Shown piece by piece: positions 20,318 through 40,690 of a stretch of DNA of 42,128 nt. The DNA comes from a virus, in IMG/VR virus record IMGVR_UViG_3300020572_000017, positions 1 to 42,128 of that record. One strand, written 5' to 3'. The notes beneath the pieces are model-generated. The model had not been told where the DNA came from and did no database searches. It saw nothing but the letters and a program-made list of their open reading frames with translations. A program made the position numbers and the translations under genes. Numbering within the stretch: position 1 is the first letter of the stretch; every line of letters starts with the position of its first letter.

Positions 20318-21265
20318 ATGATAAGTACTAAGCTAATCCAATTGATCGAGTCTGTCTTAGGCAGAGGTAAGGTTACTAACAAAGGTAACATAGCTCATCA
20401 TTGTCCATTTTGTCATTCTCCTAGAAAGAAATTAGAAGTACAATCTGTTACAAGTGATAAAGGAGAAAATCCTTGGCATTGTTGGGTTTGTAATAAGTCA
20501 GGTAAAAAGCTTTCGACCTTATTTAAGGCATTAAACGTAAGCCGTGATAAACTGTCTGAGCTGTATAAATTACTTAACAGCCAACCCAAATATAGTAACA
20601 GTAAGAACGACGGCTTACGCCAATCTATGACGGTCCTAGACCTGCCTAAAGAGTATATTCCCTTGTATAAACATTCTGAATCTATAGAATATAAAAATGC
20701 TATACATTATTTAAGAGCCAAACGAAAAATATCTCTTTCTGAGATAGTAAAATATGGTATTGGATATTGTGAATCAGGTGAATATAGTAAAAAGATTATA
20801 ATTCCTTCATATGATGAATTTGGTAAATTAAATTTCTTTGTAGGAAGAGCTTATTACGACGCAGAATCATTTAAACATAAAAATCCAGACTATTCTAAAA
20901 ATTGTGTTGGATTTGAATTATTTATAAATTGGTCACTTCCTATTGTATTAGTAGAAGGTGCATTTGACGCAATTGCAGTTAGACGAAATGTTATTCCATT
21001 ATTTGGTAAAACTATATCTGAAGATTTGCGTAAAAAGGTTATAGAAAACAAAGTTACTCAAGTATATATTTGTCTTGATAAAGACGCTCAAAAACAAGCT
21101 CTAGAACACGCAGAGTATTTTATGAACAATGGAGTGCAAGTTTATTTTGTTGATTTACAAGAAAAAGATCCAGCAGATATTGGATTTGAAAGAATGTGTA
21201 CATTAATAAAAGAAACTCAACCATTAACTTTTGCGAAATTCATAGAGTATAAATTATTTGCATAA
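20318..21265 (+). CDS. 61: DnaG-type DNA primase (T4 gp61-like)
   Basis: The 315-aa protein has a CHC2-like zinc-binding N-terminus: HHCPFCHSPRK (Cys29, Cys32) and NPWHCWVCNKSGKK (Cys55, Cys58). A TOPRIM domain follows, with the glutamate in IVLVEGAFDAIAV (Glu213, Asp217) and the acidic VYICLDKDAQKQA segment. Length is close to T4 gp61 (342 aa). It should make RNA primers for lagging-strand synthesis with a replicative helicase that is not in this window. The start follows TTATATTTAATC, a one-mismatch form of the recurrent octamer. It overlaps the recombination-nuclease gene by 1 nt (TAATG), so both are probably translated together. Confidence 0.92.
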   Translation: MISTKLIQLIESVLGRGKVTNKGNIAHHCPFCHSPRKKLEVQSVTSDKGENPWHCWVCNKSGKKLSTLFKALNVSRDKLSELYKLLNSQPKYSNSKNDGLRQSMTVLDLPKEYIPLYKHSESIEYKNAIHYLRAKRKISLSEIVKYGIGYCESGEYSKKIIIPSYDEFGKLNFFVGRAYYDAESFKHKNPDYSKNCVGFELFINWSLPIVLVEGAFDAIAVRRNVIPLFGKTISEDLRKKVIENKVTQVYICLDKDAQKQALEHAEYFMNNGVQVYFVDLQEKDPADIGFERMCTLIKETQPLTFAKFIEYKLFA

Positions 21266-24200
21266 TGAAAACATTTAATATTGGAATAGATAAAATTGAT
21301 AAAATATATCATTTAGCTGATATCCACATTAGAAATTTAAAAAGACATCAAGAGTATAAAACGGTATTTGAAAGAACTGTAAATGCTATTAAAGCAACTA
21401 TAGGTCCTAATGATATTATATTTTTAGGAGGAGATATTGTGCATGCCAAAACGGATATGACACCGGAATTAGTACAATCTGTGCAAGAGTTCTTTAAAAT
21501 GTTTGCAGATATTGCTCCGACAATATTAATTACAGGTAATCACGATTGTAATTTAAACAATAAATCTAGATTAGATGCATTGACTCCAATTGTAAATGCA
21601 CTTAATCATCCAAACATGTATTATCTCAAAGATTCTGGGGTATATCATATAGCCGACAAACACTTTGTAGTTATGTCTGTTTTTGATAAACCTAAAGATT
21701 TCATCAAAGCAGATTCATTTACTGGAGATTATAAAATTGCACTTCATCATGGAGCTGTAAATAACGCTTTAACTGACATTGGATTTCGGTTAGTTAATGA
21801 CAATGTAGATATTGATACTTTTAAAGGATATAATATTACATTGTTAGGGGATATTCATAAACCTAATCAATATTTAGACGAGGCGAAGACTATCGCATAT
21901 CCAGGTTCACTTATACAGCAAAATTACGCAGAAGCTTTACTTCATGGAATGTTAGTGTGGGATACAAATACATCTCAAGCAGAGTTTGTAGAAATTCCAA
22001 ATGACATTTGCTATTATACTTTGGAAATTGATAATAACAATTTCAATCCAATTCCAGATTTATTAAAAGGTAAAACAATTCGTCTTAGAATTAAGTCACA
22101 AAATACAGAACCCGCAGATTTAAAAGCAGCTATTGCTGAAATTAAAACTGATTTTAATATTGAAGAGTTTACAATTCAAAAAGTTAATGACTTTACTCAA
22201 AATAAAACTCGAGTACAAAAGATTAATATTGGAGATGTTCGAGATACTGAATATCAAAATGAACTTATTTCAAAATATTTAGAAAATAAATTTGCGTTAG
22301 ATGATGATATCTTAGATGGAGTTCGCCACGTTAATAGAACTGTAAATTCAGGATTACCTACATTAGAAATAAATCGAAATGTATCTTGGATTCCAAAGCG
22401 ATTTGAGTTTTCAAATATGTTTAGTTATGGAATTGACAATGTAATTGACTTTACTAATATGAAAGGAGTGTATGGAATATTCGCTCCTAACGCTTCAGGT
22501 AAATCAACAATGTTAGATGCTATTACATATTGTATATTTGATAAATGTGGAAGAACATCTAAAGCTTCAAGTGTAATGAATAATAAATCTGGTTCGTTTA
22601 AATGTAAATTTAACTTTGAATTAGATGGAAAAGATTATTTTATTGAAAAGATAGCAACTAAAGGAAGAGGTAACCACGTAAGGGTAGATGTTGACTTTTA
22701 TACTATAGACGATTTAGGTCAAAAAGAATCTTTAAATGGTAAAGAAAGAAGTGAGACAAACGATCATATCAGACAATTATTAGGAACTTATGAAGATTTT
22801 GTTTTAACTGCGTTGTCAGTGCAAAATAACAATTCAGGGTTTATTGATATGGCTCAAAAAGATCGTAAAGATTTGTTAGCACAGTTTTTAGATATTAATA
22901 TATTTGAAGATTTGTATAATATTGCCAATCAAGATATTAAAGAAGTAGCTACATTAGTTAAAGAGTATCAAAGGCAAGATTTTGGAACTCAATTAGCACA
23001 AGCAATAACAGACATTGACACTTTCTCTAAAGAACATAAAAGTTATCAAATTGATAAACTTGAATTAGAAAGTAAAATTGAAAAGATAAATGAACAAATA
23101 CTTCAATTAACTGGAGATTTAGTTCCAATTGATTCTTCAATTGAAAATATTGATTTATTAAATGACACAAAATCTAAAGTAGAAAAATTAGCAATTGATT
23201 TAAGCATTGATGCTGTAAATAAAACGGAAGAATCATCTAATGTTGAAATCAAAATTGCAGAATTAAATTTGGAATTGAATAAATTTAATATTTCAGAAAT
23301 TCAAGCTCGTATAGATGTTTTAGAAAGTATTAAAACTAATGAAAATACTTTAGTAGGTCATGTAGAAAGGCTTAAAGCAGAAGTTCGTCATAAGCTAGAA
23401 AAAATGGAAAAGCTTAATGATTTAGAATATGATGAAAATTGTAAATTCTGTATGGATAACGTTTTTGTTAAAGACGCTATTGCTACTAAAGCTTCTATAG
23501 AGCATGATAAATCAGAAGCTCAAGAGTTAGCAAATAAATTAGATGTAGTTAAGCAAAAAATTGCAGAATTAATTCCTTCTGTTCAAGAAAAAGAAGATTA
23601 TAATAAATTGCAAAGAGAAATTCATCAAAATGAATCTGTTAAATCTTCTATCGAATCTGCATTACATCAAATAGATTCTAAACAACATCAATTAGCAACT
23701 AAATTAAATGAAGTTGTTCATCAAATTGAAGAATATTATAAAAAAGAAGCTGCTATTAAAGAAAATAAATTAATTAAAGCAGTTATCAATAACTTAAATG
23801 ACGAGGTATCTTCATTGAAATCAGATTTAAGTATTTTAAATGATGATATTTTAAATTGTCATTCAAATATGTTAGTTGCTGAAAAATTAAAAGAAAAAGC
23901 AGAAGAATCTATTGTCAAATTAAAAGATTTAACACAGCAGTATAAATTCTATGAATACTATTTACAAGCAGTAAATCGAGATGGAGTTCCATATGACTTA
24001 ATTACTACGGCAGTTCCATATATTGAACAAGAAATCAATAATATACTTACTCAGTTAGTTGATTTCAATTTAATGCTTGAAATGGATGGTAAAAATATTA
24101 ATTGTTATATTGTATATGATCAAGATAACTTCTGGCCAATAGAATTAACTTCAGGAATGGAAAAGTTTGTATCGTCACTAGCAATTAGAACTGCATTGAT

Positions 24201-24423
24201 CAATGTATCTTCATTACCTAGACCAAATTTCCTAGCTATTGATGAAGGATTTGGTGTACTTGATTCTGACAACTTAAATTCCATATTCAATTTATTTGAT
24301 TATTTAAAAAGTCAATTTTCATTTATGTTAGTAATTTCTCATATTGACTCTATGAGAGATGTAGTAGACCATTTAGTAGAGATTGTTAAAACCAACGGAA
24401 ATTCCAAGATCTATTACATTTAG
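21265..24423 (+). CDS. 47/46: Fused Mre11-Rad50 (gp47-gp46) recombination nuclease
   Basis: The 1052-aa product joins two T4 proteins in one chain. Residues 1-330 are a calcineurin-like nuclease (Mre11/SbcD/gp47): Asp19 and His21 in LADIHIRN, Asp57 in FLGGDIVH, GNHD (Asn92-His93-Asp94), His161/His162 and GDIHKP (Asp196, His198). Residues 385-1052 are the Rad50/SbcC/gp46 ATPase. Walker A is APNASGKST with Lys413, followed by long coiled coils and a zinc hook Cys726-x-x-Cys729 (CKFC). The LTSG signature lies near Ser963 and Walker B is AIDEGFG with Asp993-Glu994. In T4 these are separate genes and form the end-resection complex for recombination-dependent replication. Both halves look intact. 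Confidence 0.95.
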   Translation: MKTFNIGIDKIDKIYHLADIHIRNLKRHQEYKTVFERTVNAIKATIGPNDIIFLGGDIVHAKTDMTPELVQSVQEFFKMFADIAPTILITGNHDCNLNNKSRLDALTPIVNALNHPNMYYLKDSGVYHIADKHFVVMSVFDKPKDFIKADSFTGDYKIALHHGAVNNALTDIGFRLVNDNVDIDTFKGYNITLLGDIHKPNQYLDEAKTIAYPGSLIQQNYAEALLHGMLVWDTNTSQAEFVEIPNDICYYTLEIDNNNFNPIPDLLKGKTIRLRIKSQNTEPADLKAAIAEIKTDFNIEEFTIQKVNDFTQNKTRVQKINIGDVRDTEYQNELISKYLENKFALDDDILDGVRHVNRTVNSGLPTLEINRNVSWIPKRFEFSNMFSYGIDNVIDFTNMKGVYGIFAPNASGKSTMLDAITYCIFDKCGRTSKASSVMNNKSGSFKCKFNFELDGKDYFIEKIATKGRGNHVRVDVDFYTIDDLGQKESLNGKERSETNDHIRQLLGTYEDFVLTALSVQNNNSGFIDMAQKDRKDLLAQFLDINIFEDLYNIANQDIKEVATLVKEYQRQDFGTQLAQAITDIDTFSKEHKSYQIDKLELESKIEKINEQILQLTGDLVPIDSSIENIDLLNDTKSKVEKLAIDLSIDAVNKTEESSNVEIKIAELNLELNKFNISEIQARIDVLESIKTNENTLVGHVERLKAEVRHKLEKMEKLNDLEYDENCKFCMDNVFVKDAIATKASIEHDKSEAQELANKLDVVKQKIAELIPSVQEKEDYNKLQREIHQNESVKSSIESALHQIDSKQHQLATKLNEVVHQIEEYYKKEAAIKENKLIKAVINNLNDEVSSLKSDLSILNDDILNCHSNMLVAEKLKEKAEESIVKLKDLTQQYKFYEYYLQAVNRDGVPYDLITTAVPYIEQEINNILTQLVDFNLMLEMDGKNINCYIVYDQDNFWPIELTSGMEKFVSSLAIRTALINVSSLPRPNFLAIDEGFGVLDSDNLNSIFNLFDYLKSQFSFMLVISHIDSMRDVVDHLVEIVKTNGNSKIYYI

Positions 24424-27032: not shown

Positions 27033-28085
27033 ATGGCTATAACAAATTTATCATCTCAATACATTTCATCTTCATTTCAAAGCTTGATGCAAGTATCAAG
27101 TTCCAATGCAGTATACAATGGATCAGGAACTCAAATAACTACATTGTTAGTTAGTGCGTCTTACGCCACTACATCATCATACGCTTTAAATGCCGCAACT
27201 GGATCGCAAGGAACTTCTGGTGCTCAAGGTGCTACGGGTACAGCAACTCAAGGTATTCAAGGTCGTCAAGGAGTTACTGGTACAGGAACTCAAGGAGCGA
27301 CTGGCGCAGGTGCTCAAGGTACTATAGGTACTCAAGGAAATTCAGGTGTTCAAGGAGCGACAGGCACTAGCATTCAAGGAGTTCAAGGTACATCTGGCGC
27401 AGGAGGAAGTCCTGGTGGAAGTAATTATGATGTGCAATATAATAATGCTGGAAGCTTCGGTGGAACTAATTTATTAATAATTTCCGGTAGCGGCGTGTTT
27501 AATACAGCTGCTGTTTACAATAAAGCTAGCTTTATAATTAACGATGCAGATGCATCCGGAGATTCATATGGAACTAGAACTCAGATATCAGCAATTGCCG
27601 GTACAGTATACGATTTTACCGGAACTAATTTAAAAGTTCTTGATGGTAATATTATGGAGCTAGCTCCTATAGGAGTTGGAGCTTCTTTCAATATCGGTGA
27701 TGTAATACAATTTGTAGCAGCATCAGGTGAATGGGAAGCAATAACAAACGCTTCTGATACAAAATTAGCAGAGGGTAGTATTGGCGTAGTAGTTGAATCG
27801 ACTGGGTTTGGATCAAATGTTAAAGTATTGTTTAACGGATTAATTGTTGTTAAAGCACATGGCGCATATTGGGGTGGGTTTAGTTCAGGTATACTACCTA
27901 GTCGTACTGTATATCCTCGCGATACGACTGGCGGAGGCATTACGACATTAGGTACTACACGTCCAGGTACAGCTGGATACATTTTACGAGCTTTAGGCAC
28001 TGTCTTAGCAGATACTTTAGATACTCCTGGCGACCATTGGTTAACTGTACAATGGAGACCTGAACTTAAAGGAACTGTAATTTAA
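27033..28085 (+). CDS. Collagen-like tail fibre protein
   Basis: In the 350-aa product, residues about 57-130 are collagen-like Gly-x-y triplets dominated by Gln, Thr and Ala (GTQGNSGVQGATGT). They are followed by NYDVQYNNAGSFGGTN, a linker often seen after such stretches in phage fibres. The C-terminal domain (about 150-350) is beta-rich with IGDVIQFVAASGEWEAI and a final HWLTVQWRPELKGTV. The first 55 residues resemble a virion-attachment or assembly region. Collagen-like triple helices are used as rigid fibre shafts; the C-terminal domain would then be the tip. The gene is 47 nt after the large fibre-like gene. Confidence 0.8.
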   Translation: MAITNLSSQYISSSFQSLMQVSSSNAVYNGSGTQITTLLVSASYATTSSYALNAATGSQGTSGAQGATGTATQGIQGRQGVTGTGTQGATGAGAQGTIGTQGNSGVQGATGTSIQGVQGTSGAGGSPGGSNYDVQYNNAGSFGGTNLLIISGSGVFNTAAVYNKASFIINDADASGDSYGTRTQISAIAGTVYDFTGTNLKVLDGNIMELAPIGVGASFNIGDVIQFVAASGEWEAITNASDTKLAEGSIGVVVESTGFGSNVKVLFNGLIVVKAHGAYWGGFSSGILPSRTVYPRDTTGGGITTLGTTRPGTAGYILRALGTVLADTLDTPGDHWLTVQWRPELKGTVI

Positions 28086-28102: not shown

Positions 28103-30295
28103 ATGATAAAAAACGTAGTAGCAATATATCCAGGAAGATTTCAGCCGTTTGGTAAACATCACGCAGCTGCCTTCAAATGGCTGCAACAACACTTTGGCGG
28201 AGCGAATTGCTACATAGCAACTTCGAATGTCATAGACCTACCTAAATCGCCCTTTTCTTTCAAAGACAAGGCAGACATTATAAGACATTATGGTTTCGAC
28301 GATAGGCTTGTACAGGTAAAGAATCCATATAAAGCGGAGGAGATAATGCGCAATTACAAGCCAGAGGATACTGCAGTAGTATTTATGGTAGGTGCAAAAG
28401 ATATGAAAGAAGATCCTAGGTTTAAAATTGGTAAAAAGAAAGATGGATCTGATTCATATTTTCAAGAATATGAAGCAAATAAAACAAATCTTCAACCTTT
28501 TGATAAACATGGATATTTAGTAGTTGCACCCCACGTTTCAATGAGCGTTCCAGGATACGGAGAAATGTCAGGTACCTCAATGAGAAAAGCTTTAGGTGAT
28601 GTAAAAACTCCTAGATCTCAAAAGATAAATTTATTCAAAGCTGTTTTTGGTTGGTATGACGAAAAGCTAGCTAAAATGATATTTGATAAATTAGAAGCTG
28701 TAAATGAATCTAAATTATCAATTGCAGAAGTAATGAAAAAAAAGAATTTAAAAATAGAAACAACTCAACCAGATCAAACTAAATTATTTAGTAAAGATTG
28801 GTGGAATGAATCGTTAGAATTAACAGAGGCAGTTTCAATTGAAGATATTAAATCTAAATTTAGTAAGTTTGTAAAAGCTATTAAGCAAGAAAGTCAAGAA
28901 ACCAAAGAAGCTTTCAAGCTATTGATATTAGCTGCAACTGGAAAGAAAACTTTAACAGACGCTGAACAAAAACAAATAGGAGATCAATTAAAAGATGTTC
29001 TTAAAACAATTGGATTAACAGCAATTGCAGTTATGCCAGGAGGATTTATTGCTGGTATATTAATTAAAGTACTTAAAGCAGAAAAATACATAACTCCTTC
29101 TTCATTTATGGAAGGATATATGTCTCCAGAACAACAAAAAGCACATGACGAGAAAATGATTAAACTAAAAGACTTTTTAGATACTAATACAGGTAAGCCA
29201 TTTGTATACGATTTCGATGAATTTCCTAAAACCGTTTATGGAGTAAATATTGAAGAGTCTTTGATCATGGAAGGCGGAGCGGGTGGTCATATGGCGCATC
29301 CATTTAATATTCCAACGGTTAAGACAGGAAAAGATTTAGTTACTGTATTTCAAAGATCAATTGATTATTTGAAAAAAGGACCTGCTTCTGTAAAAATTGA
29401 TGGAGTAAATGCTTCTATTCGTTTAATTACGCTAGACAATAAAAAGACTTTTGTAATGGATAGAGGTTCTAATAAACCTTTAGATGTTAAAGGAATTACC
29501 AAAGCAGAATTAACAGATCGTTTTGGTGAAGGTCATGGAATGATTAAAATTGGAGGTACTGTATTAGATATTTTCAATGAAGCATTATCTGAAATTACGC
29601 CAGCTCTTAAAAAATTAGGATTATGGGATAATCCTAACGTAATGTTCAATTTAGAATATGTAGCTGGATCAACTAACGTATTGTCTTATAATAAAAATTT
29701 CCTAGCAGTTCATGGATTGTTAGAAATTGCACAAGTAACTCCAACTAAAAGAGCTACTAAAGAAAAAGCATATAATAAAGCAGCAATGCAAGACTTATTA
29801 AATAATTTAGTACCGTCAGCATCAGAGCGTGGATATGAAGTGCTAGGTTCTATTCCAACTACATTAGATGGAGAACCTGATTTGTCAAAAGAATTAAATA
29901 AATCATATACAGTTAATTTCGGAGATAAAAAAGAAACTAAAACTCTTTCTCAATGGTTAGCAAAAGCAACTATACCAGACGGAGATATTAAAACCGTAGA
30001 TGGTAAAAGAATAGCTGCTTTATCTAAAGATGTTTTAATTAAAATATCAGACGGGGTAGCTTTACCAGAATACATTGCAGATCCTAAAGATTACAAAGCT
30101 GCAGTAGATGGGTTTGTTATTTACATAGCTACTATGAAATTAGGAGATGCTATTTTAGCTAAGCTAAATTCTCCATTAGGCCCCGTATCAGAGCATGAAG
30201 GTATTGTTATTCGTGATACTAAAATTTACAATAAACCATTTAAAATTACTGGTAAATTCATTTTAGGCGGATTAGCGACATCTTTTAAAAAATAA
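28103..30295 (+). CDS. Three-domain fusion: NMNAT-like nucleotidyltransferase, LETM1-like domain, RNA ligase-like domain
   Basis: Residues 1-200 of this 730-aa protein are a cytidylyltransferase/NMNAT-type fold: GRFQPFGKHH at 11-20 (a variant of the usual F-H-x-G-H site) and SGTSMRKAL at 156-164 in the place of the S-x-x-x-I/M-R motif. Residues about 245-345 resemble a LETM1-type helical domain (KLLILAATGKKTLTDAEQKQ, AIAVMPGGFIAGILIK, ending ITPSSF). Residues 391-730 look like a covalent nucleotidyltransferase/ligase. Motif I is KIDG with nucleophile Lys431, followed by MFNLEYVAGS, EGIVIRD (699-705) and FKITGKF (713-719). Joining a NAD- or nucleotide-synthesising enzyme to a polynucleotide ligase could couple cofactor supply or RNA repair. 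Segments LTE-A (240-243) and IME-G (388-391) separate the domains. Substrates are not established. Confidence 0.82.
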   Translation: MIKNVVAIYPGRFQPFGKHHAAAFKWLQQHFGGANCYIATSNVIDLPKSPFSFKDKADIIRHYGFDDRLVQVKNPYKAEEIMRNYKPEDTAVVFMVGAKDMKEDPRFKIGKKKDGSDSYFQEYEANKTNLQPFDKHGYLVVAPHVSMSVPGYGEMSGTSMRKALGDVKTPRSQKINLFKAVFGWYDEKLAKMIFDKLEAVNESKLSIAEVMKKKNLKIETTQPDQTKLFSKDWWNESLELTEAVSIEDIKSKFSKFVKAIKQESQETKEAFKLLILAATGKKTLTDAEQKQIGDQLKDVLKTIGLTAIAVMPGGFIAGILIKVLKAEKYITPSSFMEGYMSPEQQKAHDEKMIKLKDFLDTNTGKPFVYDFDEFPKTVYGVNIEESLIMEGGAGGHMAHPFNIPTVKTGKDLVTVFQRSIDYLKKGPASVKIDGVNASIRLITLDNKKTFVMDRGSNKPLDVKGITKAELTDRFGEGHGMIKIGGTVLDIFNEALSEITPALKKLGLWDNPNVMFNLEYVAGSTNVLSYNKNFLAVHGLLEIAQVTPTKRATKEKAYNKAAMQDLLNNLVPSASERGYEVLGSIPTTLDGEPDLSKELNKSYTVNFGDKKETKTLSQWLAKATIPDGDIKTVDGKRIAALSKDVLIKISDGVALPEYIADPKDYKAAVDGFVIYIATMKLGDAILAKLNSPLGPVSEHEGIVIRDTKIYNKPFKITGKFILGGLATSFKK

Positions 30296-30325: not shown

Positions 30326-30931
30326 ATGGCAACGAAGTTACGTAATATAGAAGCAATTAAAAAAATGCTAGATGGTACTCACCGTACTCAAAATAAAACA
30401 ACGGTTGGGTTTTCAGATGCAGATAAAGTTGCTAATCAAAACAAAAAAAGAGCGGTTGGTGAATGTTGGGTTGAGAATGGGGATGAATGGGAGCAAAGAG
30501 AAGGCTTTAAAATTAAAAAGGGTAAAATGGATGAAATCCGTCAACTCATTGCTAATAAAATGCCGTCGACATGTCCTAAGTGCAATAATTCAATGACAAA
30601 GCGATTGGATGAAAAGTTCTGGAAGTTAGAAAAACATTGTTTTGACTGTCAAGTAGATTTCGAACATAATCTTCGTATTGAAGGAAAATATGAAGAGTAT
30701 GAAAAAGAAAGAATGCTTAAAAATGCAGAAGCTTGGTTAAAAGATGCAGAGCAAGAGGCTAAAGAATTAATTGAGTCTTTTAGAAACCCTGCTAACTTTA
30801 CCAATGTAGATGGCACGACAGAACAATGGAATGGTGGAATGACTGCAGAAGAAATTGCAGACAAAATAGAAAAAGAATTTGTACTTTTCAAAGAAAACTT
30901 TATAAACGAATTAAACAACAACAATAAGTAA
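30326..30931 (+). CDS. Zinc-ribbon protein, function unknown
   Basis: The 201-aa protein has a central zinc ribbon, Cys83-P-K-Cys86 and Cys105-F-D-Cys108 (TCPKCNNSM and HCFDCQVDFEHNL). Before it is a basic conserved-looking region (ECWVENGDEWEQREGFKIKK), and after it a long acidic helix to the C-terminus (KEEMADKIEKEF-like composition). The start at 30326 is preceded by TATAAATAAAAAA; an out-of-frame ATG lies 5 nt upstream at 30321. It overlaps the next start by 1 nt. Zinc ribbons often bind nucleic acids or RNA polymerase, but nothing more specific can be said. Confidence 0.8.
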   Translation: MATKLRNIEAIKKMLDGTHRTQNKTTVGFSDADKVANQNKKRAVGECWVENGDEWEQREGFKIKKGKMDEIRQLIANKMPSTCPKCNNSMTKRLDEKFWKLEKHCFDCQVDFEHNLRIEGKYEEYEKERMLKNAEAWLKDAEQEAKELIESFRNPANFTNVDGTTEQWNGGMTAEEIADKIEKEFVLFKENFINELNNNNK

Positions 30932-32248: not shown

Positions 32249-32499
32249 TTGAGGAATCTGAATATAAAGGCAGAAAAGTAAAATTAGGCAAACCATTTTA
32301 TACTCCAGGAGGTCCTAGAAAGCGTGCAGTATATGTACGAAATGAAAAAGGAAATGTAGTAAAAGTAGGATTTGGTGAGCCAGGAATGAAAATTAAAAAG
32401 AACAATCCAGCTCGAAGAAAATCTTTTAGAGCAAGACATAATTGTGAAAATCCAGGACCTAGGTGGAAAGCTAGATATTGGTCATGTAGAGCTTGGTAA
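32236..32499 (+). CDS. Conserved basic domain reached by -1 frameshift (no start codon of its own)
   Basis: In the -1 frame relative to the upstream gene there are 87 codons before the TAA at 32497-32499. They encode EYKGRKVKLGKPFYTPGGPR, AVYVRNEKGNVVKVGFG, then MKIKKNNPARRKSFRARHNC and a terminal RYWSCRAW. I recognise this sequence type as a conserved small domain in T4-like and other large phages, so it is very likely real coding sequence. This frame is closed by a TAA at 32194-32196, and between there and the domain it has no ATG, GTG or TTG. The first in-frame ATG is in the middle of the domain. Expression therefore needs a frameshift at 32230-32236, a rare start (ATT at about 32248), or a sequencing error. 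The function is unknown; it is strongly basic, so nucleic-acid contact is plausible. Confidence 0.75.
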   Translation, partial: DNKVIEESEYKGRKVKLGKPFYTPGGPRKRAVYVRNEKGNVVKVGFGEPGMKIKKNNPARRKSFRARHNCENPGPRWKARYWSCRAW

Positions 32500-32512
32500 A
32501 AATAAAATAATA

Positions 32513-33439
32513 ATGAAAACCGAATTAATACAAGAATCTATTAGACTTAGAAAATTAGCAGGTTTAGTAATTAACGAAGATGCTACAGATGATAAAGCAG
32601 CTGAAGAAGTAAAAGATTTAATTACTAAAGTTTCAAACTATGAAGAGTTTGTTGCTAAATTAGGTACATTAGCGTCTGATAAAAAAGTGCAAGCATTTAT
32701 CACTTCAGGCAGAACAGACGGAGACCAAACAGATGATTTATTAAAAGCAGTTTCAAAAGCAATTAAAGTAACTGATTTAAGACCTACTCAAAATGAAATT
32801 GATGTTAATGGGTCATTGAAGTGGCCATTAACAAAAGCAGATTCTCTAGCTAATTGTTTAGGAAATAACACAGTAACTATTAAAGCTCCAATTGTAACTT
32901 ACAATGGAGAATATATTATAGACGGACATCATAGATGGAGTCAGTTATATGCTATGAATTCCAGAGGTGTAATTGATGCTATTGATTTAGTAGGACCTAA
33001 AATAAATCCTGTAGATGTATTAAAGATAGTACAATTAGCTATTGCAGCTGAATTAGGTAAAGTACCAACTCAAAGCGTGCAAGGTCAAAATCTTTTAAAA
33101 GCAGACGCTAAATTTGTTCGTGAGTATGTTATTAAAAATATCACTCCAGAGTGTATTGATGTATTTAAAAGATTTCGTTCTAAAGTTGCAAATGTAAATA
33201 AAGCAGAAGGAATTGCAGATGGTATTGTAGTACCTAATATTAATTCAATGCAAAAAACATCACAGCCAGTAGCCGGAGCACCTAAAAGAGATGTAATGCC
33301 TCAGACTGATGATGCAGTTAATGCAATGAAAAATATTTCCAAAGGAGTTGTTAATTATAATGAGCCGTATATACAAGAAGAATCAGTAAATAAAAAATTA
33401 GATAATATGCTTAAAAAGTCTATTATCAAAATAAAATAA
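32513..33439 (+). CDS. ParB-like domain protein with N-terminal capsid-targeting-like peptide
   Basis: I start this gene at the ATG at 32513 (308 aa), not the in-frame ATG at 32444, because the longer form would overlap the conserved RYWSC-ending frame by 56 nt and adds residues with no family character. The N-terminus MKTELIQESIRLRKLAGLVI, then N-E-D, has an amphipathic helix ending in I20-N-E22, like T4 internal proteins that are cut by the prohead protease. The middle (about 90-150) resembles a ParB/sulfiredoxin-like nucleotide-binding fold: LRPTQNEIDVNGSLKWPL, then IVTYNGEYIIDGHHRWSQL with D137-G-H-H-R141. The rest is helical. A packaged, injected protein with ParB-type NTPase or nuclease activity is an attractive but unproven reading. 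Confidence 0.75.
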   Translation: MKTELIQESIRLRKLAGLVINEDATDDKAAEEVKDLITKVSNYEEFVAKLGTLASDKKVQAFITSGRTDGDQTDDLLKAVSKAIKVTDLRPTQNEIDVNGSLKWPLTKADSLANCLGNNTVTIKAPIVTYNGEYIIDGHHRWSQLYAMNSRGVIDAIDLVGPKINPVDVLKIVQLAIAAELGKVPTQSVQGQNLLKADAKFVREYVIKNITPECIDVFKRFRSKVANVNKAEGIADGIVVPNINSMQKTSQPVAGAPKRDVMPQTDDAVNAMKNISKGVVNYNEPYIQEESVNKKLDNMLKKSIIKIK

Positions 33440-33440
33440 T

Positions 33441-33986
33441 ATGATAAAATTAGTAGATTTATTAAAAGAAGACGAAGCACCAAAGTGCCCCGTAGCTACT
33501 CAAAACGTTGAGGTTAATTTAGAACATCGTCAAATTGCTATTGACAAATATGGATATGGTCCATTGAATCCGAACAATCCAAATATTAAATTTTGGAAAG
33601 ATAAAGCGGCTACTTGGAAATTAGATACCATGGAAGAAGCTAAGGATTCAAGATGTAATTCATGTGCCGCTTTTAATATTACTTCTAGAATTTTAAATTG
33701 TATTGAAGTTGGATTAGCATCTGGAGAAAAGTACGTAGCTCCTGAAGAGAAGCCAGTAGAACAAGGGCCAGAACAACAAATGGAAGCTGCTGAAGTACCT
33801 TCATGGTTACAGCCAGAAGCTCCTGAAGCTGAGGCAGAATTAGATGATACTCAAGGAGCTGAAAAAGACGCTTGGAATACTATAGAAGCTGGAAAATTAG
33901 GATATTGCACAATGCTTAAATTTAAGTGTGCAGGTTCGAGAACATGTAATGCTTGGATTGTAGGCGGTCCTGTAAAAGATAAATAA
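33441..33986 (+). CDS. Cysteine-rich conserved phage protein, possible metal or Fe-S site
   Basis: The 181-aa product has seven cysteines in two groups: Cys16, Cys72, Cys75 and Cys87 (KCPVAT, RCNSCAAF, LNCIEV), and Cys156, Cys163 and Cys169 (GYCTML, KCAGSRTCNAW). Between them is a Pro/Glu-rich low-complexity stretch (100-140). The pattern suggests one metal or iron-sulfur site assembled from both ends. YGYGPLNPNNPNIKFWKDKA is a conserved-looking core that I associate with hypothetical proteins of T4-like phages. The first ten residues, MIKLVDLLKE-D, again end in L-x-E like a capsid-targeting peptide. It follows the ParB-like gene by 1 nt. Confidence 0.78.
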   Translation: MIKLVDLLKEDEAPKCPVATQNVEVNLEHRQIAIDKYGYGPLNPNNPNIKFWKDKAATWKLDTMEEAKDSRCNSCAAFNITSRILNCIEVGLASGEKYVAPEEKPVEQGPEQQMEAAEVPSWLQPEAPEAEAELDDTQGAEKDAWNTIEAGKLGYCTMLKFKCAGSRTCNAWIVGGPVKDK

Positions 33987-34898: not shown

Positions 34899-36482
34899 AT
34901 GAGTCAACAATCCTTAAAGGATATTATAAGAGAAGAATACAAGAAATGTTTACAGGATCCGGTTCACTTTATGAAAAAGTATTGCCAGATCCAACATCCT
35001 CAAAAAGGTAAAATTCCATTTCACTTATATCCATTTCAAGAGACCGCATTAAGAGACCTGCGAGACAACGATTATAACATCATATTAAAATCTAGGCAAC
35101 TAGGTATCTCTACATTAAGTGCAGGCTATGCACTATGGCTTATGACGTTTTTTGGGGATAAAAATATCCTAGTAATTGCGACTAAACAAGAGGTTGCAAA
35201 AAATCTAGTATTAAAGGTAAAAGTCATGTATGAAAATTTACCTTCATGGCTTAAATTACCAGCAGCAGAAGATAATAAATTATCACTCAGATTAAATAAT
35301 GGGTCTCAAATCAAAGCAACTTCATCATCAGGTGACTCTGGTCGTTCTGAAGCATTGTCTTTATTGATTATAGATGAGGCTGCGTTTATTTCCAATGTAG
35401 AAGAAATTTGGATATCAGCACAGCAAACGCTAGCAACAGGAGGTGGAGCTATTATATTATCAACTCCTAATGGTACTGGTAATTTTTTCCATAAAACATG
35501 GGTAGGAGCTGAAGAGAAGCGAAACAGATTTAATACTATTAGATTGCATTGGTCAGTGCATCCTGATAGAAATCAAATTTGGAGAGATAAACAAGATGAA
35601 CTATTAGGACCTAAAGGAGCAGCTCAAGAATGTGATTGTGACTTTATTTCTTCTGGACATACTGTAATTGATGGTGCTTTATTACAATGGTATAATCAAA
35701 CTACAATACAAGATCCTATAGAAAAAAGAGATTCTGAAAATTTATGGATTTGGGAGAAACCAGATTATTCTCGAGACTATATTGTAGTAGCGGACGTTGC
35801 TCGTGGAGATGGAGCTGACTATTCAGCATTTCATGTTATTGATGTAGAATCAGTAACGCAAGTAGCGGAATTCAAAGGCCAAATATCTACTAAAGATTAT
35901 GGAAATCTTCTAGTTAATATTGCTACAGAATACAATGATGCTTTATTAGTAATTGAAAATGCCAATGTAGGTTGGGCTTCTATTCAAGTAGCAATAGACA
36001 GAGGCTATAAGAATTTATACTATTCTCCTAAAGATGGTCAAGTATCAGATGTATCTCAACAATTAGCTAGATATGTAGATTTAAAAGATACATCACAAAT
36101 GACTCCTGGATTTACAACTTCTTCTCGTACTCGTCCTTTGGTAATTTCCAAATTAGACACTTACATGAGAGAAAGAGTTCCGGTAATTCGTAGTCGTCGA
36201 TTAATTGAAGAGCTTTTCGTATTTATTTGGAATGGTTCAAAAGCAGAAGCACAACATGGTTATAATGATGACCTTGTTTTATCATTTTGTATTGGATTAT
36301 GGATAAGAGATACAGCCCTTAAATTAAGACAACAAGGCATTGAATTGAATAGGAAAACTTTAGACTATTTTGGTAAAGGAAATGGCGTATATTCTGCTAA
36401 TGCAGGGTCTAGAAACCAAGCCGGTTGGACAATGAGCACCGGTCAAAAAGGTCAAGATGAAGATTTAACATGGCTTCTTTAA
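34899..36482 (+). CDS. 17: Terminase large subunit (gp17-like)
   Basis: The 527-aa protein is the DNA-packaging motor. The ATPase domain has LKSRQLGIST at 63-72 as Walker A, IATKQEVAKNLV, the Walker B LLIIDEAAFI (about 155-164) and LSTPNGTGNFFHK as coupling motif. The C-terminal RNase H-like nuclease shows VVADVARGDGADYSAF (about 298-313), LLVIENANVGW (about 350) and DDLVLSFCIG (about 457), supplying the acidic metal ligands. T4 gp17 is 610 aa. The Walker A position normally held by Lys before S/T is Ile70 here, as in other SRQLGIS-type terminases where an upstream basic residue is thought to substitute. It is directly followed by the portal gene; in T4, gp18 and gp19 lie between. Confidence 0.96.
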   Translation: MSQQSLKDIIREEYKKCLQDPVHFMKKYCQIQHPQKGKIPFHLYPFQETALRDLRDNDYNIILKSRQLGISTLSAGYALWLMTFFGDKNILVIATKQEVAKNLVLKVKVMYENLPSWLKLPAAEDNKLSLRLNNGSQIKATSSSGDSGRSEALSLLIIDEAAFISNVEEIWISAQQTLATGGGAIILSTPNGTGNFFHKTWVGAEEKRNRFNTIRLHWSVHPDRNQIWRDKQDELLGPKGAAQECDCDFISSGHTVIDGALLQWYNQTTIQDPIEKRDSENLWIWEKPDYSRDYIVVADVARGDGADYSAFHVIDVESVTQVAEFKGQISTKDYGNLLVNIATEYNDALLVIENANVGWASIQVAIDRGYKNLYYSPKDGQVSDVSQQLARYVDLKDTSQMTPGFTTSSRTRPLVISKLDTYMRERVPVIRSRRLIEELFVFIWNGSKAEAQHGYNDDLVLSFCIGLWIRDTALKLRQQGIELNRKTLDYFGKGNGVYSANAGSRNQAGWTMSTGQKGQDEDLTWLL

Positions 36483-36521: not shown

Positions 36522-38339
36522 ATGGCAGACAAATCATTATTCGGTCGTTTAAAACGACTATTCAATAATAATGTGGTAGTGCGCAGAGTTGGAAAAAATC
36601 AGTTACGAGTTGTTGATAACGATCACTTACAATCTTTGGGTAATGCACATAATTCAAAGTTTATCGACCGTTTTACACGCTTACATGGCGTACGTCCTAA
36701 TTCATTAAATACTTATAATCCTAATTATAACTACTTTTCTTCTAAAACAGAATTGTATACAGATTATGAAGTAATGGATCAAGATTCAATTATTTCATCA
36801 GCATTAGATATCTATGCAGATGAAACCGTAATGAAAGACGATTTTGGAGATGTATTGCGAATTACCAGTAACGACGAAAACATTAAAAAAATACTTCATA
36901 ATTTATTTTATGATATTTTAAATGTAGAATTTAACCTTTGGCCATGGACACGTAATATGTGTAAATATGGAGATTTATATTTGCATTTAGATGTGCAAGA
37001 AGAAATCGGTATTATCAATGTAACTCCTATGTCAGCATATGAAATCATTCGTGAGGAAGGAATGGATATTAATAATCCATATCACGTACAATTCAAACAG
37101 CTAGGCGGAGGAAATATCACTTATGAAAATTTCGAAATAGCGCATTTTAGAAACTTAACAGATTCAAACTTTTTACCATATGGTAAATCAATGATTGAAG
37201 GTGGTCGTAAAGTTTGGAAACAATTAACATTAATGGAAGATGCGATGTTAATTCATCGTATTATGCGTGCACCTGAAAAGCGTATATTTAAAATTGACGT
37301 AGGTAATATTCCACCTAATGAAGTTGATAACTACATGCAGAAAATCATGAACACCATGAGAAAGACTCCGTATGTAGATGAAAAAACAGGAGAGTATAAT
37401 CTTAAATTCAATATGCAAAACATGTTGGAAGATTATTTCCTACCAGTTCGTGGTGGACAGTCTGGAACAGAAATTGATACATTAGCTGGTATGGAATTTA
37501 CCGGTATTGATGATATTGAATATCTTCGTAATAAAATGATGGCTGCTTTAAAAGTGCCAAAAGCATTTATTGGATATGAAGAAGGTATTTCAGGTAAAGC
37601 TACTTTAGCAGCTGAAGATGTTCGTTTTGCTAGAACAATTGAAAGAATTCAAAGAATTATAATTTCTGAATTGACTAAAATTGCTATTGTGCATTTAGTT
37701 GCTCAAGGATATGAAGATGCAGAGTTAATAGACTTTGAATTGACTATGACTTCTCCTTCAACTATTTACGAACAAGAGAAGTTAACTTTATATAATACCA
37801 AAGTTGATTTAGCTAAATCAATGTTAGAAGGTAAAATTATTTCTAGAAATTGGATCTTTAAAAACATCTTTAATTTAACAGAAGATGAAATGGAAGAAAT
37901 GGAAATGGGAATTATTAAGGATCAAAAAGATACATTTAGAATGACTAAAATAGCTGAAGAAGGCGAAGATCCGGCAAACCCAAAACCTAAAGAAAAAGAA
38001 AAAGAAGAAGGTGAAGAAGATGCTAATCCATTTGGAGAAGGTATTGATAAGCTTCAAAAAGAATATGATAAACGATCTAAAAATCGTAATACTCCTGAAG
38101 TACCTGAAGGTGGATGGCCTGGAGCTGGTCGACCTGAAGAGCCTGTAAAATACAATTCTCATGATCACCCTAGAGGGTATGATCCAATAGGAAAAGTAGC
38201 ATGGAAAAACTCTAGAAATGAATCGACTAACCCTATTAAAAAATATGGATTGGAAAAATTAATTTCTAAAAAGTCGAAAATACTAGCAGAATCGAGTATT
38301 ATGGATGAAACAATTATAATTCAAGACGATATAATTTAA
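36522..38339 (+). CDS. 20: Portal protein (gp20-like)
   Basis: The 605-aa product has the T4-type portal pattern: YSSKTELYTDYEVMDQDSII-like beginning (about 68-87), SALDIYADETVMKD, then EIAHFRNLTDSNFLPYGKSM with IEGGRKVWKQLTLMEDAMLI. RIMRAPEKRIFKIDVGNIPP and KMMAALKVPKAFIGYEEGIS follow, the latter being a portal hallmark. The C-terminal 120 residues are charged and disordered, ending in ISKKSKILAESS with an L588-A-E590 site of prohead-protease type. Twelve copies should form the DNA-entry ring and the capsid assembly initiator. Length is close to T4 gp20 (524 aa) plus the tail extension. Confidence 0.95.
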   Translation: MADKSLFGRLKRLFNNNVVVRRVGKNQLRVVDNDHLQSLGNAHNSKFIDRFTRLHGVRPNSLNTYNPNYNYFSSKTELYTDYEVMDQDSIISSALDIYADETVMKDDFGDVLRITSNDENIKKILHNLFYDILNVEFNLWPWTRNMCKYGDLYLHLDVQEEIGIINVTPMSAYEIIREEGMDINNPYHVQFKQLGGGNITYENFEIAHFRNLTDSNFLPYGKSMIEGGRKVWKQLTLMEDAMLIHRIMRAPEKRIFKIDVGNIPPNEVDNYMQKIMNTMRKTPYVDEKTGEYNLKFNMQNMLEDYFLPVRGGQSGTEIDTLAGMEFTGIDDIEYLRNKMMAALKVPKAFIGYEEGISGKATLAAEDVRFARTIERIQRIIISELTKIAIVHLVAQGYEDAELIDFELTMTSPSTIYEQEKLTLYNTKVDLAKSMLEGKIISRNWIFKNIFNLTEDEMEEMEMGIIKDQKDTFRMTKIAEEGEDPANPKPKEKEKEEGEEDANPFGEGIDKLQKEYDKRSKNRNTPEVPEGGWPGAGRPEEPVKYNSHDHPRGYDPIGKVAWKNSRNESTNPIKKYGLEKLISKKSKILAESSIMDETIIIQDDII

Positions 38340-40078: not shown

Positions 40079-40690
40079 ATGGAAAATAAGAAATTAATAG
40101 TAGACTATATTACATTTGACATCACTCCGGAGATGATCAATGAGTCTATGGAAAAGAATAACGGTAGATTAATGGTTAAAGGTGTATTGCAAAGAGCAGA
40201 TGCTAAAAACCAAAACGGTAGAGTTTACCCTAAAGATATTTTAATTCGTGAAGCTAAAAAGTATAACGATATTAATATCAAAGAAAGAAGAGCTTTAGGT
40301 GAATTAGATCATCCAGATTCTTCAATCGTAAATTTAAACAACGTATCTCATAATATTACAGAGATGCATTGGGAAGGAAATGATTTATGTGGAACTGTAG
40401 AAGTTTTATCAACTCCATCAGGTAACATCTTAAAAGAGTTATTTAAGTGTGGTATTAAATTAGGTATTTCTTCTAGAGGTTTAGGATCAGTTAAACAATT
40501 AGGAGAGTCTGAAGTTGAAGTTCAATCAGACTTTGAATTAATCGCTTTTGACTTTGTGTCTAATCCATCAACTCATGGAGCCTTTTTAGCACCTATGCAT
40601 GAATCAGTGCAAGCAGACTTAAATAATAAGGCTGCTAAATATGAAAAAGTAAATCATTTAATTACTGACATTTTAACTGACAATAAATAA
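40079..40690 (+). CDS. 21: Prohead core protease (gp21-like)
   Basis: The 203-aa product matches T4-type prohead protease: MVKGVLQRADAKNQNGRVYP near the N-terminus, catalytic His78 in LGELDHPDS and Ser131 or Ser132 in LGISSRGLGS, then FELIAFDFVSNPSTHGAFL. The fold is shared with herpesvirus assemblin-like serine proteases. It cleaves scaffold and capsid proteins after (L/I)-x-E sites and is then lost by autocleavage. Many neighbours have such sites. T4 gp21 is 212 aa. It sits between an internal-protein candidate and a small gene preceding the scaffold candidate, matching T4 order 20-67-68-21-22-23. Confidence 0.95.
   Translation: MENKKLIVDYITFDITPEMINESMEKNNGRLMVKGVLQRADAKNQNGRVYPKDILIREAKKYNDINIKERRALGELDHPDSSIVNLNNVSHNITEMHWEGNDLCGTVEVLSTPSGNILKELFKCGIKLGISSRGLGSVKQLGESEVEVQSDFELIAFDFVSNPSTHGAFLAPMHESVQADLNNKAAKYEKVNHLITDILTDNK

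Follow-up and report, generated by a model that had tools for sequence, protein, structure and literature searches.

A candidate head-targeted precursor containing an NMNAT/PPAT-type nucleotidyltransferase and an RNA-ligase-fold module, encoded beside T4-type head genes

The window analyzed here is the whole 42-kb fragment, positions 1 to 42,128, of IMG/VR virus record IMGVR_UViG_3300020572_000017. It contains an intact ORF of 730 amino acids, whose modules are listed in Table 1 together with the relevant neighboring genes. Tail genes lie upstream of the ORF and T4-type head genes downstream, with the terminase, portal and gp21-like prohead protease genes reached after 4.6 kb. The predicted protease is 31% identical to T4 gp21 and keeps the His of GELxHP and the Ser of GxSSRG, which we take to be the catalytic residues of gp21-type proteases. 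The product of a gene closer to the ORF has a T4-like targeting N-terminus and is likely also packaged in the head, judging from this sequence. A terminase gene was found in 117 of 186 loci encoding related ligase modules, in all 117 cases downstream on the same strand and 0.6-6.3 kb away. Moreover, all ten tested records that hold the nucleotidyltransferase (NT)-ligase gene encode a T4-type Gp23 capsid protein. Nine of these capsid proteins have [LIV]xE|[AS] near residue 60 (the bar marks the cut position; the T4 gp23 control reads LTE|A at residue 65), and the tenth, from a huge-phage sequence, gave no alignment near this position.

Table 1. Features of the candidate precursor ORF and of its head-gene neighborhood, in window coordinates
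Feature	Position	Strand	Details
Candidate precursor ORF, 730 aa	28103..30295	+	ATG start, one uninterrupted frame
NMNAT/PPAT-fold nucleotidyltransferase (NT), predicted	28103..28708	+	Residues 1-202; GRFQPFGKHH and SGTSMR; candidate cut AVNE202|S
xxWW segment, FSKDWWNESLELTE	28787..28828	+	Ends in candidate prohead-protease site LTE242|A
Optional helical module	28829..29113	+	Residues 243-337; candidate cut FME337|G
Short module, GYMSPEQ...FVYDFDEFPKTVYGV	29114..29272	+	Residues 338-390; candidate cuts at its end, IEE385|S and IME390|GG
RNA-ligase-fold covalent nucleotidyltransferase, predicted	29273..30292	+	Residues 391-730; start GGAGGHMAHPF; K431 (KIDG), EGIVIRD, K714 (FKITG)
Neighboring protein, T4-like capsid-targeting N-terminus	33441..33986	+	MIKLVDLLKE|DEAP; targeting pattern match
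T4-type terminase large subunit	34899..36482	+	Pfam/PHROGs profile searches
Portal protein	36522..38339	+	phrog_213
T4 gp21-type prohead (head maturation) protease, proposed processing enzyme	40079..40690	+	phrog_207, E=1e-55

Several other genes of the window should be mentioned in their own right. A 201-aa protein with CxxC pairs is encoded immediately 3' of the ORF (30326-30931); it has homologues in 168 of the 186 ligase loci, and Pfam and PHROGs searches gave no family for it. The product of 32444-33439 weakly matches a ParB-like nuclease, contains a DGHHRW motif and has a VINE|D site at its N-terminus. A 1052-aa ORF (21265-24423), metallophosphoesterase-like at the N-terminus and SbcC-like in the remainder, is a possible SbcD-SbcC fusion, while 1709-2350 resembles a ClpP-type head-maturation protease (phrog_94), a second one beside the gp21-type enzyme. 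In the related locus of the cultured Microcystis phage Mel-JY01 (L032), which has the NT-ligase ORF, a gene annotated as ribosomal protein S21 (22183-22410) lies amid the head genes, close to the prohead protease.

The initial annotation had assigned the N-terminus to an NMNAT-like transferase on account of its GRFQPF and SGTSMR motifs, and profile searches and structure prediction agree with this assignment. The module scores 24.6 bits against Pfam CTP_transf_like (cut-off 21) and matches the phrog_395 cytidyltransferase at E=4e-6. In an AlphaFold2 model of the full-length chain (pLDDT 80.8; alignment of 36 sequences), this part matches structures of NMNAT, NaMNAT and PPAT (Foldseek E 9e-4); the comparison with NadM 2r5w gives Z 11.3 and 4.7 A over 167 residues (VIA), tied with PPAT and NadD. 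The model thus indicates that the N-terminus probably has an NMNAT/PPAT-type fold, i.e., the Rossmann-type HIGH nucleotidyltransferase fold; because the three kinds of structure tie, the fold does not single out the substrate. All 57 ORFs of the GRFQP subtype of NT carry both GRFQP[FM][GS]xHH and SGTxxR. They depart from the (H/T)xGH motif, keeping its last His and having G or S at its first position in 57 of 57 cases, while the other NT subtypes carry TGAH or HxGH. The activity of GRFQPFxHH-type NTs is uncertain because of this replacement of the first His/Thr.

The C-terminal motifs that had been taken for those of an RNA ligase, KIDG, EGIVIRD and FKITGKF, are likewise present, and the predicted fold is RNA-ligase-like. 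Relatives of this module form two subtypes, ligA and ligB. Conservation of Lys431, on which the initial annotation had staked its ligase assignment, is complete among 42 ligA relatives (alignment A4), as is that of the EG of motif IV and of the Lys of FKxTG; KxDG, EGxV and KxTG are kept in all 42 ligA and all 24 ligB sequences. Predicted alone, the module reaches pLDDT 91.4. The nearest solved structure is T4 RNA ligase 1 (5tt6; Z 9.3, 3.9 A, 179 residues), and nearly all top-ranking structures are RNA ligases (Naegleria, fungal, archaeal and T4 RNA ligase 2), at modest Foldseek E-values (4.6e-3). Sequence comparisons place the module outside the families searched: no Pfam family covers ligA (E >= 0.0047, seen in 2 of 15 sequences), PHROGs gave weak matches and no covering family, PDB sequence searches, whether started from the single protein or from the ligA and ligB profiles, returned chance matches only, and hhalign of T4 Rnl2 against both profiles was not significant. 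The two subtypes are homologous to each other in the N-terminal half (hhalign 98.8%, E 6e-17). The module shares with T4 RNA ligase 1 and RNA_ligase (PF09414) the predicted fold, KxDG, EGxV and the motif-V lysine, but differs from them in lacking a significant sequence match, in the KxTG form of motif V and in an added GHMxHP start. It is, by its modeled structure, a new family within the RNA-ligase fold, and it may act on RNA, DNA or protein.

The region between the two modules had been described as a LETM1-like domain. Among six members of the helical module, one reaches Pfam LETM1_RBD, at E=0.12, and PDB and Pfam profile searches with the six gave nothing significant; the LETM1 label is thus unsupported, and residues 243-337 are kept simply as a helical module, present in just 7 of the loci compared for it. 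Residues 338-390 are a separate module of 53 residues that the earlier reading had missed. What is supported of the proposed fusion of three domains is the presence of NMNAT-like and RNA-ligase-like modules in one ORF; the LETM1 part is not, and to describe the product as one enzyme fused from three parts is probably mistaken.

Relatives in IMG/VR number at least 533 for ligA and at least 254 for ligB. The loci compared here are the best 80 of each, and the locus set is therefore biased to the query. In a set of 50,697 phage records, 2 match the full-length query and 3 match the ligase part of a ligB fusion. A search for a cellular origin among 84,980 species genomes yielded 4 relatives; the contigs of two are 400 kb long and may belong to phages. 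The ligase relatives L221 and L222 are on such 400-kb contigs, labeled as Firmicutes MAGs, perhaps misbinned huge phages, and L221 has several targeting-like N-termini, MKSLIQYISE among them. The NT modules fall into three subtypes (GRFQP, GGFKPLTGAH and GGFKPPHxGH), of which the first two are each found with ligA or ligB and the third with ligA. Further modules between NT and ligase are optional, some ORFs consist of the ligase only (L100, L102, L020, L034), and the longest chains add domains such as GNAT (below the Pfam cut-off) or DUF192. In huge-phage locus L033, the DGHHRW motif is also found fused ahead of NT-ligB, and in L004 (5983-7833) the fusion is broken into two ORFs inside the ligase part. 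A short module, CW.GYKQVG.KKKG...PNCV(P), is shared by several freshwater fusions and marine T4-like proteins; its loci include L013, L016, L041, L201 (9577-10893) and L204 (5592-7544).

The module borders are marked by a conserved type of sequence, which the earlier reading had also missed. T4 gp21 cleaves after Glu in L/I-x-E, and an Asp at P1 blocks processing in T4 (PMC9026906, in the part available). Of the 97 distinct junctions before the ligase (172 ORFs), 94 read [LIVMF]xE|GG, whatever stands upstream, and 91 have [LI]xE. P1 is Glu in 94/97 and P3 is L, I or V in 97/97, with P2 free (entropies of 0.23, 1.02 and 2.54 bits for P1, P3 and P2, respectively); the three exceptional sequences have D or C in place of Glu (LISD once, LLLC twice). 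Fifteen of 187 ligase ORFs stand outside this count: 5 of them fit, L033 does not, L039 and L040 are without HMxHP, and 7 are truncated. As a sequence pattern, the junction motif matches the L/I-x-E specificity of T4 gp21, although the ligase fold itself might account for the conservation of the GG at P1'. Before the 338-390 module, 43 of 52 distinct junctions have Glu at P1, followed by G, A or S in 41; Glu is found in 46 once three shifted junctions are counted, and 6 of the 52 are still without it. Candidate sites are concentrated in linkers (9.6 per 1000 residues, vs 2.4 in NT and 3.5 in ligase modules), where 155 were observed vs 56 in shuffles (maximum 77), i.e., about threefold. Of 90 distinct xxWW segments, 64 have a site in the next 17 residues and 67 have one in the next 39, the latter vs 15% of shuffled sequences; the usual spacing is 5-14 residues. 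In the window protein, the candidate sites E202, E242, E337, E385 and E390 are at domain borders, those after E242, E385 and E390 being of the (L/I)xE form; the low-confidence linkers of the model are 202-231, 329-340 and 380-395. The ligase module itself contains two looser sites, E476 and E493.

Relatives of the window protein also carry N-termini resembling those that direct T4 proteins to the head. T4 IPII and IPIII begin with MKTYQEFIAE|A, and a strict ten-residue pattern was derived from T4 positions 4, 7, 8 and 10, having been written after the T4 and cyanophage N-termini were seen. It matches 44 of 1092 distinct plus-strand ORFs of the IMG/VR loci, vs a mean of 1.5 and a maximum of 7 in shuffled sequences; in controls it matched 1 of 387 distinct minus-strand ORFs and 6 of 5804 internal methionines. 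The matching peptides, which read MIKLxDLLKE or similar, sit on nine unrelated bodies; one such protein, that of 33441-33986, is encoded in the window. The ligase-only ORF of huge-phage locus L034 contains MKFLKSYEEFLNENLILE|GG. In L012, MMKLKSLINE stands inside the fusion, immediately before the GGAGGHM of the ligase, as would result from joining a tagged ligase gene to the end of the NT gene. In a 197-aa ORF of L079, the peptide MIKLLDILRE precedes a WYHGSTIDI segment, which presumably recalls ADP-ribosyltransferases. The window ORF itself, which starts MIKNVVAIYPGRF, is without an N-terminal capsid targeting sequence.

Marine phages provide a parallel. According to the available parts of two virion-proteomics papers, NMNAT-like proteins of S-SCSM1 and S-CREM2 are listed among virion proteins, S-CBWM1 and S-SZBM1 are mentioned alongside, and the authors name contamination as possible (PMC9602691, PMC10665884). 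The two NMNAT-like proteins, of S-SCSM1 and S-CREM2, start MKSFLQFLKE|A and MKNFSSFLTE|A. Sixteen marine or other phages were hand-picked from lists (466 and 535 records in two of these) or from papers. Eleven of 15 NT proteins from these phages match the strict pattern, Melnitz has a nine-residue form, and the copies of P-HM2, S-CAM1 and S-PM2 are without a targeting peptide. A KxDG ligase-like gene (T4-like GC 71) is directly upstream of the NT gene in 8 of the 16; Melnitz has one gene in between, 6 show no such neighborhood, and in S-PM2 the two parts are fused in the opposite order, with the ligase-like part first. The HxxH and KxDG of this cyanophage family fall in register with ligA. Its hhalign comparison with ligA and ligB, made with five sequences, is not significant (probability ~1%), and Foldseek gave one match, to an S-PM2 protein (E=8.8e-5); for these reasons we call the family ligase-like and not a proven relative of ligA.

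Modules that are swapped freely and joined by sites of the T4 prohead-protease type are likely to end up as separate head proteins. In our opinion, it is therefore quite likely, on sequence grounds, that the ORF encodes a head-targeted precursor cut by the prohead protease into separate enzymes inside the head. The precursor would enter the prohead, here probably by way of the internal FSKDWW...LTE segment and not an N-terminal tag, and the gp21-like protease would then cut after Glu at the intermodule (L/I/V/F)-x-E|(A/G/S) sites. This would release an NMNAT-like nucleotidyltransferase and a ligase-like covalent nucleotidyltransferase with the new N-terminus GGAGGHM. At infection, the two enzymes would leave the head with the DNA and, in the cell, help to maintain NAD(H) and to repair nucleic acids ahead of phage gene expression. 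The module limits, site conservation, targeting peptides of relatives, synteny and folds are supported by sequence; prohead entry, cutting, ejection, the activities and substrates of both enzymes and the benefit to the phage we infer. A role of the packaged enzymes in NAD supply and repair is a tentative proposal; a counter-defense function is plausible. The chances appear evenly balanced for a wider generalization, namely, that the prohead protease of T4-like phages serves as a polyprotein processor for strings of unrelated effector modules joined by "WW plus L-x-E" targeting-and-cleavage units. Such strings would be loaded as one chain and freed in the head, an NMNAT-plus-ligase kit would be delivered ahead of any phage gene expression, and marine cyanophages would carry the same NMNAT-like cargo behind a plain T4-type targeting peptide.

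The marine phages also supply an argument for an ordinary multidomain enzyme that is never packaged and whose domains stay joined and cooperate in the infected cell, salvaging NAD and repairing RNA or DNA: their KxDG ligase-like and NMNAT-like genes, with the arrangements described above, are in the replication region, and three of the NMNAT-like copies have no targeting peptide. Against this stand the position of our gene by head genes, the protease-type junctions, the low-confidence linkers and the targeting peptides of relatives, and we regard such an enzyme as unlikely.

T4 RNA ligase 1 (gp63) promotes tail-fiber attachment. A structural or assembly protein, in which the ligase-like domain aids tail-fiber attachment or head assembly and catalysis is secondary, would fit both this nearest solved fold and the tail-fiber-like gene directly upstream of the ORF (27033-28085). 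That neighbor is not conserved, since just 6 of 186 ligase loci have tail-fiber homologues, and the catalytic motifs are invariant; an assembly role is accordingly very improbable. The two enzymes might instead form a coupled cycle, the ligase taking AMP from NAD+ and freeing NMN, from which, with ATP, the NMNAT-like enzyme remakes NAD+. The pair does persist despite recombination of three NT and two ligase subtypes, and in marine phages the two lie side by side or are fused, but joint packaging alone may explain the pairing. Moreover, the nearest folds are ATP-dependent RNA ligases, and no NMN-binding domain was seen. We consider this cycle the least probable of the readings, with a very slim chance of being correct.

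Head-packaged T4 proteins and polyvalent proteins are already known (PMC9026906, PMC5512222, PMC9503650, as far as available), and the proposed precursor shares features with both. Like the T4 internal head proteins (IPI-III, Alt), it combines L/I-x-E sites, a gp21-type protease and proposed ejection with DNA, and its relatives have ten-residue targeting peptides. Unlike these proteins, which have one cargo per precursor, it has several modules with candidate cuts between them; its targeting segment would be internal and not N-terminal, and its cargo is of the NMNAT/ligase type. Polyvalent proteins of phages and conjugative elements, as described in the accessible text of PMC5512222, unite unrelated activities in one chain, are encoded near late virion genes and are thought to be injected. 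The NT-ligase ORF likewise encodes several unrelated domains and lies by virion genes. Processing of polyvalent proteins is ascribed to zincin-like metallopeptidases, unlike here, and neither an NMNAT-plus-ligase architecture nor prohead-protease sites were found in the accessible account of that set (PMC5512222). The virion NMNAT-like proteins of S-SCSM1 and S-CREM2 share the HIGH-type nucleotidyltransferase; they are virion-detected and have a targeting peptide, but are encoded by a separate gene with no ligase in the chain, and the available parts of the papers do not mention a targeting sequence. In the open-licence literature, as far as accessible, our searches showed no description of effector modules separated by prohead-protease sites, of a head cargo that combines NMNAT and ligase, or of a cyanophage NMNAT with a targeting peptide.

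If the proposed precursor is processed and packaged in this way, the enzymes that supply NAD and repair nucleic acids would be at work from time zero of infection, when NAD-draining or tRNA-cutting host defenses strike first. There would also be a testable reason for the recurrence of NMNAT-like proteins in cyanophage virion proteomes, for which contamination is not excluded in the available text of the original reports. T4-like phages are very common in water, and the targeting peptide together with the L-x-E cut rule would list packaged effectors straight from their genomes.
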